Assembly: GCA_028718605.1 (NCBI GenBank)
Contig: JAQULM010000001.1
Location: 477,719 to 519,005, forward strand
DNA length: 41,287 bases
Origin: Patescibacteria group bacterium
Lineage (GTDB): Bacteria; Patescibacteriota; Patescibacteriia; UBA10025; JAHIVO01
Direction: 5' to 3'
Program-made: the position numbers and the translations under genes
Notes under the pieces: generated by a model
What the model was told of the DNA's origin: nothing
Databases searched by the model: none
The model's input: the letters and a program-made list of their open reading frames with translations, nothing else
Shown here: one piece after another, positions 12,990-13,344 of the stretch
How positions within the stretch are numbered: the first letter of the stretch is position 1
Layout of the letters: each line of letters starts with the position of its first letter

Positions 12990-13034
12990 AGAGGAATTCA
13001 AACTCTATCCACGGCTAAGGAATCCTTTGTTCTA
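12990..13034 (-). pseudogene. 3' fragment of an interrupted tRNA-Arg-like gene
   Basis: Minus strand TAGAACAAAGGATTCCTTAGCCGTGGATAGAGTTTGAATTCCTCT aligns with TAGAACAAGGGACTCCTAAGCCCTAGATCCAGGTCCAATTCCTGG of the intact tRNA. Confidence 0.6.
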
Positions 13035-13143
13035 CCCGCCTGCCATTGCCCTTGCCCCCACCAGGAATTGGACCTGGATCTAGGGCTTAGGAGTCCCTTG
13101 TTCTATCCGTTGAACTATAGGGGCATCGGCAAGGGTGGGCGGG
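13035..13143. repeat. Inverted-repeat-bounded segment carrying tRNA-Arg(CCU)
   Basis: Ends CCCGCCtgccattgCCCTTGCC (13035-13056) and GGCAAGGGtgGGCGGG (13128-13143). Confidence 0.65.
13053..13124 (-). tRNA. tRNA-Arg(CCU)
   Basis: GCCCCTATAGTTCAACGGATAGAACAAGGGACTCCTAAGCCCTAGATCCAGGTCCAATTCCTGGTGGGGGCA; acceptor GCCCCTA/TGGGGGC; anticodon loop CTCCTAA. Confidence 0.88.
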
Positions 13144-13157
13144 TCCGTTGAACTACG
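13144..13157 (-). pseudogene. 5' fragment (D-arm) of the interrupted tRNA-Arg-like gene
   Basis: Minus strand CGTAGTTCAACGGA; joins in register with TAGAACA at 13034. Confidence 0.55.
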
Positions 13158-13213
13158 AAAAAATGTGCATTAATAGGATCACCCGTAATATCTTATATTC
13201 CCACTTTTAAAAA

Positions 13214-13229
13214 TGTTCCACGTGGAACA
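13214..13229. promoter_or_regulatory. parS: parS-like centromere site (ParB binding)
   Basis: Perfect 16-bp palindrome TGTTCCACGTGGAACA, matching the chromosomal parS type. Confidence 0.8.
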
Positions 13230-13344
13230 ATTACTTTTTTTGCTAATATTCGCTAAAATGTTAAAAAACAAATAATTACGTATAGTAATTAATAAAACAA
13301 GTGATAATAATTGCTTATATTAAATAAAATAATGAGTCGCAAAA

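Follow-up and report, generated by a model that had tools for sequence, protein, structure and literature searches.

Integrative elements and islands that target tRNA genes restore the function that they break, so that breaking and restoring a tRNA gene as a strategy has precedents; these islands carry an integrase, span kilobases and usually restore only the 3' part of the gene. The anticodon loop and the T-loop are known crossover places of such elements. MITEs and the REP/REPIN sequences associated with RAYT proteins (e.g. PMC3733652) are small, non-autonomous, bounded by inverted arms and present in many copies. Some GIY-YIG homing endonucleases are found beside tRNA genes; one example, SegB of phages, co-localises with tRNAs, makes its cuts inside their genes and thereby amplifies tRNA segments (PMC13096335). 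Finally, the transposing tRNA introns of Thermoproteales (cited in PMC10714607) are insertions that spread among tRNA genes.

The locus analysed here lies in a stretch of 41,287 nt (hereafter the window, meaning the whole stretch) from a tiny Patescibacteria group bacterium of parasitic type whose genome comprises 1.19 Mb in three contigs. Among named organisms, Patescibacteria such as Magasanikbacteria and Uhrbacteria come nearest to it on the strength of one 833-aa protein. The locus contains a tRNA gene, bracketed by short inverted arms, inside a second tRNA gene of the same isotype. As opposed to an island, such a unit measures ∼105 nt, consists of a whole tRNA gene only and lands in the middle of its target; no integrase is encoded, the 109 nt of the unit studied leaving room for the tRNA alone, and function is restored by a whole second tRNA, the expression of which is inferred. 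It differs from MITEs and REPINs in that its cargo is, by the same inference, a working essential gene, its arms are not REP hairpins, no target duplication is seen and no cognate transposase was found. While SegB is a phage enzyme acting by segmental amplification, the bracketed units contain no endonuclease gene, GIY-YIG genes occurring instead in a separate arrangement of tRNA 5' half, GIY-YIG gene and tRNA. The Thermoproteales introns are archaeal and are spliced out; the present inserts are tRNA genes in their own right, and the gene that they interrupt decays. Because the unit fails at least one criterion of each of these groups, and because a partial literature search (covering few subscription papers or preprints) yielded no report of nested or mobile tRNA units, we regard the kind as new.

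On the minus strand, the order at the tRNA-Arg locus is outer 5' piece, left arm, intact tRNA-Arg(CCU), right arm and outer 3' piece, the last comprising the remaining D-arm, the anticodon arm, the T-arm and the 3' strand of the acceptor stem (Table 1). The inner gene was called by ARAGORN and Rfam alike (Rfam 60.6 bits), and the arms CCCGCCcacCCTTGCC and GGGCAATGGCAGGCGGG are predicted to pair with each other around the cloverleaf. Excising the unit fuses GTTCAACGGA with TAGAACA without a gap and without target duplication. The rejoined flanks aligned to the inner tRNA with a score of 70 (maximum of 1000 shuffles, 30.5), and to the un-nested tRNA-Arg of G003, a genome of the same family, with a score of 94 (maximum of 1000 shuffles, 28.0). 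An earlier note, made from the sequence alone, had claimed that an intact tRNA-Arg(CCU) with inverted-repeat ends sits within the D-loop of a broken tRNA-Arg, that removal of the 109 nt restores the outer gene and that the outer copy has decayed. The first claim held by ARAGORN, Rfam and the predicted fold, the second by the seam and by flank scores exceeding all 1000 shuffles, which also disposes of the objection that the outer fragments resemble tRNA-Arg by chance. The third held as well, although its wording that no matching acceptor stem remains was too strong: the outer stem (TTTTTCG / CGAGAGC, against GCCTTCG / CGAGGGC in G003) retains four Watson-Crick and two G-U pairs of seven, and is thus decayed rather than absent.

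Table 1. Positions of the nested tRNA genes and their parts in the window.
Feature	Start	End	Strand	Basis or remarks
Outer tRNA-Arg, 5' piece	13144	13162	-	Acceptor 5' strand and D-arm up to ..AACGGA
Arg inserted unit, 109 nt (left arm, tRNA, right arm)	13035	13143	-	Exact seam; predicted fold with paired arms
Left arm CCCGCCCACCCTTGCC of Arg unit	13128	13143	-	Sequence and predicted fold
Inner intact tRNA-Arg(CCU)	13052	13125	-	ARAGORN and Rfam; sole intact copy found in the genome
Right arm GGGCAATGGCAGGCGGG of Arg unit	13035	13051	-	Sequence, genome pattern search, predicted fold
Outer tRNA-Arg, 3' piece, decayed	12982	13034	-	Seam and flank alignment
Outer tRNA-Ala(CGC), 5' piece, split in anticodon loop (..CATTCGC/)	12716	12738	-	Shuffle test
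Ala inserted unit, 109 nt (decayed left arm GCCTACCCGCTATGTCC, tRNA-Ala(CGC), right arm GGCGATGGCAGGCGGG)	12607	12715	-	
Inner intact tRNA-Ala(CGC)	12624	12696	-	ARAGORN, Rfam
Outer tRNA-Ala(CGC), 3' piece, with further insertions	12542	12606	-	Alignment
Outer tRNA-Ile(UAU), 5' piece, split in anticodon loop	25527	25562	-	Score 72; shuffle maximum 34.5
Inner intact tRNA-Ile(UAU), flanks without CCTGCCCGCC-type arms	25368	25443	-	ARAGORN, Rfam
Outer tRNA-Ile, 3' piece (T-arm and acceptor 3' strand)	25288	25312	-	Alignment

Three of the four tRNAs in the window are nested (Arg, Ala and Ile). For the outer Ala gene, none of 1000 shuffles reached its score against the un-nested tRNA-Ala(CGC) of another genome, and two of 1000 did so against its own inner copy; the Ala unit matches three loci of other genomes (L116, L172 and L175) in design and insertion site. 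Elsewhere in the source genome, surveyed by stretches around tRNAs and by pattern searches rather than by tiling, a tRNA-Asn is nested in an anticodon loop between the arms CCTGCCCGCC and GGCAGGCGGG, and 5' or 3' parts of tRNAs flank Pro(CGG), Arg(GCG), Phe, Asp, Tyr, Leu(CAA) and others, many of these parts being 100% identical to the intact copy. The motif GGCAGGCGGG occurs seven times in the 1.19 Mb, three times directly 3' of a tRNA. Intact copies cover the usual anticodon range in this genome and an inner copy is sometimes the sole intact one, for which reason we presume inner copies to be the working genes where no other intact copy was found, as for Arg(CCU), their expression being inferred.

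G003 provides an empty site: an uninterrupted tRNA-Arg(CCU) lies at the orthologous locus, as judged by agreement of the neighbouring coding stretch and of the Ala tRNAs that follow. Among the tRNAs compared, the window's outer Arg copy is closest to this un-nested gene (81% identity), and its inner copy is closest to the bracketed inner copy of G005, a genome of another family (94%), so that the inner copy is nearer to the tRNAs of other genomes than to the outer copy surrounding it. The simplest reading is therefore that the outer gene is the resident and the inner one the newcomer. As tRNAs are short, inferring transfer from the identity of single tRNA pairs is weak.

Similar units are widespread. 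In the class, the arm pattern GCCCGCC N80-110 GGCRGGCGGG matched 60 of 292 genomes (the reversed pattern, used as control, gave one match), and a stricter version matched 17 of 294 genomes sampled across the phylum, other classes included (control, 0). Viral contigs did not match the tight arm pattern, and the phage matches to one unit were restricted to its tRNA part. Our set of bracketed tRNAs comprises 66 genes from many genera and covers the isotypes Thr, Arg, Ala, Leu, Pro, Val, Gly, Gln and Ile; since loci were chosen because they appeared to contain a tRNA, it cannot measure how often units carry one. In 59 of the 66, the fit of the joined flanks to the inner tRNA surpassed that of all 60 shuffles, and the isotype fitting best was that of the inner tRNA in 54 of these 59 (mean of 10,000 permutations 10.4, maximum 23). 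Insertion sites that could be placed fell in the D-loop (23), the anticodon loop (24) and the T-loop (4). When the joined outers of the 66 were run through ARAGORN, 26 yielded a tRNA call spanning the seam, and in 24 of these the anticodon was that of the inner gene, compared to 20 calls among 330 control joins with flanks from different isotypes. Nine seam shifts were allowed per outer and one per control join, which somewhat flatters the contrast in raw counts, but not the anticodon match. Nests can be multiple, as in L104 (Thr in Thr in Thr) and in L110 and L180 (repeated nests). No target duplication was seen at the seams, the outer tRNAs being continuous and without repeated bases. An artefact of assembly or binning, conceivable inasmuch as genomes of this phylum are mostly metagenome-assembled, is all but excluded by the recurrence of the same design in independent genomes, some with few large contigs (G043, G197 and G144).

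Evidence for movement comes from two tRNA-Thr(GGU) units in different families (L151 in f44, L158 in f55). Their inner tRNAs are 99% and their whole units 95% identical while their flanks share 44%, and they occupy different sites, the D-loop in one case and the anticodon loop in the other; L107 and L193 (Arg), as well as L109 and L160 (Ala), behave in the same way. Near-identical units at different loop positions in different families support mobility and render in-place duplication alone insufficient. An in-place origin would involve no movement between loci: the same tRNA would serve as template for mending a broken loop, or a tandem duplication would afterwards be split. It is suggested by the (near) identity of inner and outer copies at Pro(CGG), L110 and L180, and by the amplification of tRNA segments upon SegB-type cutting of tRNA genes (PMC13096335). 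We consider it unlikely because tRNAs of many isotypes have these same arms in more than one class, because near-identical units sit at different loop positions and because the window's inner copy is nearer to tRNAs of other genomes than to its outer copy. The earlier note had offered mobility as an inference, to be refuted if neither an empty site nor similar units turned up in other genomes; both were found, which favours its reading, and neither of the alternatives it listed, tandem duplication and gene conversion, explains on its own units of 95% identity at different loop positions. Its description of the unit as MITE-like is met for the terminal inverted repeats and not for a target-site duplication.

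Taken together, the nesting, the shared isotype, the loop sites, the empty site and the relocation of near-identical units between lineages are shown by sequence, and our interpretation, that the 109-nt segment represents a mobile, non-autonomous unit which carries a tRNA and which breaks and replaces a gene of the same isotype, is likely (probability of roughly 0.72). In the mechanism that we propose, a unit in which short inverted arms enclose a complete tRNA gene (consensus CCTGCCCGCCATNGCC [tRNA] GGCNATGGCAGGCGGG, ∼105 nt) would enter another tRNA gene at its D-loop, anticodon loop or T-loop without target duplication, and a single insertion would both destroy an essential gene and replace it. 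Selection would then act as a filter: as tRNA genes are mostly single copy here, insertion of another isotype would presumably be lethal, and an insertion would survive only where the identity of the carried tRNA is that of the broken one, whereas insertion outside tRNA genes would yield a redundant tRNA copy that subsequently decays. The inner copy would take over as the working gene, the outer copy would decay and gather more hairpin insertions, and repeated rounds would produce tRNAs nested two or three deep.

Could the outer tRNA instead be spliced and functional, with the second tRNA gene residing in its intron? In favour of this view, 26 of the 66 outers are still recognisable as tRNAs, the arms form a helix at the loop, and a third tRNA-His copy is well formed apart from a hairpin in its anticodon loop. 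However, none of the Rfam intron families, whether group I, group II or other, matches the inserts, decay, truncation or renewed interruption is common among the outers, and in the source genome the anticodons concerned are served by intact copies, so that splicing is not needed; we judge this explanation very unlikely. Known structured RNAs were likewise rejected as an identity for the inserts, as the Rfam scans gave only tRNAs and unrelated matches. The tRNA-His-like gene in question (L039, G000 C1:122089-122191) scores 48.4 bits in Rfam and its hairpin spans ∼30 nt.

As for the driver, no transposase or recombinase, which the earlier note had suggested might act in trans, could be linked to the unit, and no enzyme has been shown to move or cut it. 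We prefer small GIY-YIG endonucleases, which would make breaks in tRNA loops into which units would be copied in trans, for three reasons: (i) their genes adjoin broken tRNAs, with 15 of the 32 small GIY-YIG genes inspected lying between a tRNA 5' part interrupted by a loop hairpin and an intact copy of the same tRNA; (ii) GIY-YIG matches are more numerous in genomes with nests (median of 7 per genome against 4 in the others, p = 2e-9); and (iii) SegB cuts tRNA genes. Nearly every genome of the class has GIY-YIG matches (285 of 292, with UvrC included in the count), and the correlation is uncorrected for phylogeny or genome size. In the absence of cleavage data this role remains an inference, and even as our first choice we think it rather more likely to be wrong than right.

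A second candidate is a Y1 tyrosine transposase (RAYT/IS200-like) that moves the units as REP-type hairpins, the tRNA riding in the spacer between the arms. Y1_Tnp matches occur in 166 of the 292 class genomes and are modestly enriched in those with nests (33 of 46 against 133 of 246 others, p = 0.034), a weaker association than that of GIY-YIG genes; the lack of target duplication and the ∼98-nt units that the same arms bracket without a tRNA would also fit. Yet a Y1_Tnp match is absent from 13 of the 46 nested genomes, both Y1_Tnp genes in the source genome adjoin a different hairpin (ACCGCACCC..) where no tRNA fragments are found, the arms pair with one another instead of each forming a hairpin of its own, and the flanking bases vary with no fixed GTAG tag. 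A role for Y1 is thus unlikely, and assignment to RAYT/REPIN was rejected since the arms are not separate REP hairpins and lack a GTAG-type tag. TIGR-Tas was also dropped, the literature sections bearing on it giving no tie to tRNA genes.

Returning to the mobile unit, a bolder reading is that tRNA genes of a mobile class exist in Patescibacteria, in the form of minimal cassettes with a tRNA as their only cargo that enter breaks in tRNA loops, survive only by replacement, pass horizontally between families and classes and renew the tRNA set by nesting. We would not wager on either side of this proposal. tRNA genes are usually seen as a static, vertically inherited core; here they are apparently the cargo of minimal mobile elements, and self-compensating insertion could allow parasitic DNA to live inside essential single-copy genes. 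If true, tRNA gene phylogeny and annotation would read differently across a large share of bacterial diversity, and these genome-reduced bacteria would offer a testable case of essential genes being renewed by selfish DNA.

Several further arrangements were observed around tRNA genes. In G000, small GIY-YIG genes immediately precede a tRNA and are themselves preceded by a hairpin-broken 5' part of that tRNA (C3:4178-4390, C2:302313-302519, C1:405255-405464, C3:68032-68235 and C2:83084-83278), and the same arrangement is seen in relatives (L126, L128, L131, L133, L135, L136, L140, L142, L143 and L146). Units with the same arms, ∼97-103 nt long, lacking a tRNA and differing in their interiors from genome to genome, occur in G185, G025, G121, G142, G197, G153, G103 and G399, in many copies in some genomes, and outside tRNA genes where flanks were inspected. 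tRNA loops are thus not the sole target of same-armed units, and it is possible that the tRNA-less ∼98-nt units reflect a general element with variable cargo. Downstream of Lys, Gly, Leu, His and Glu tRNAs lies an element that opens with the reverse complement of the 3' half of the tRNA's T-arm, continues with a structured-looking stretch (e.g. GGGCAGC..GCTGCCCAGGAC) and ends in a perfect copy of the tRNA 3' end (G000 C1:292375-292616, C1:537547-537973, C1:571742-571990, C1:581186-581818 and C2:385692-385949); these T-arm elements have no Rfam match, and assignment of the T-loop elements to the HEARO/omega RNA family was dropped for the same lack. Second copies of Thr, Asn and Phe tRNAs carry a D-loop insertion of the family GGGCCGAGA..CGAGGCGGGC..CCGGAAGAGC that contains no tRNA and is possibly a structured RNA (G000 C3:67662-67822, C2:133640-133750 and C1:532320-532440). 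In G017 (C32, L057/L197), a bare CCCGCC..GGCGGG hairpin without a tRNA splits the D-loop at the position that is also interrupted in the window (AACGGA/../TAGAACAAAGGATT), and an intact tRNA-Arg(CCU) lies a short distance downstream. Lastly, a parS-like palindrome, TGTTCCACGTGGAACA, is found upstream of the tRNA-Arg at positions 13211-13232 of the window, and a similar palindrome lies near tRNA-Arg(CCU) in L055, L059, L064 and L074.
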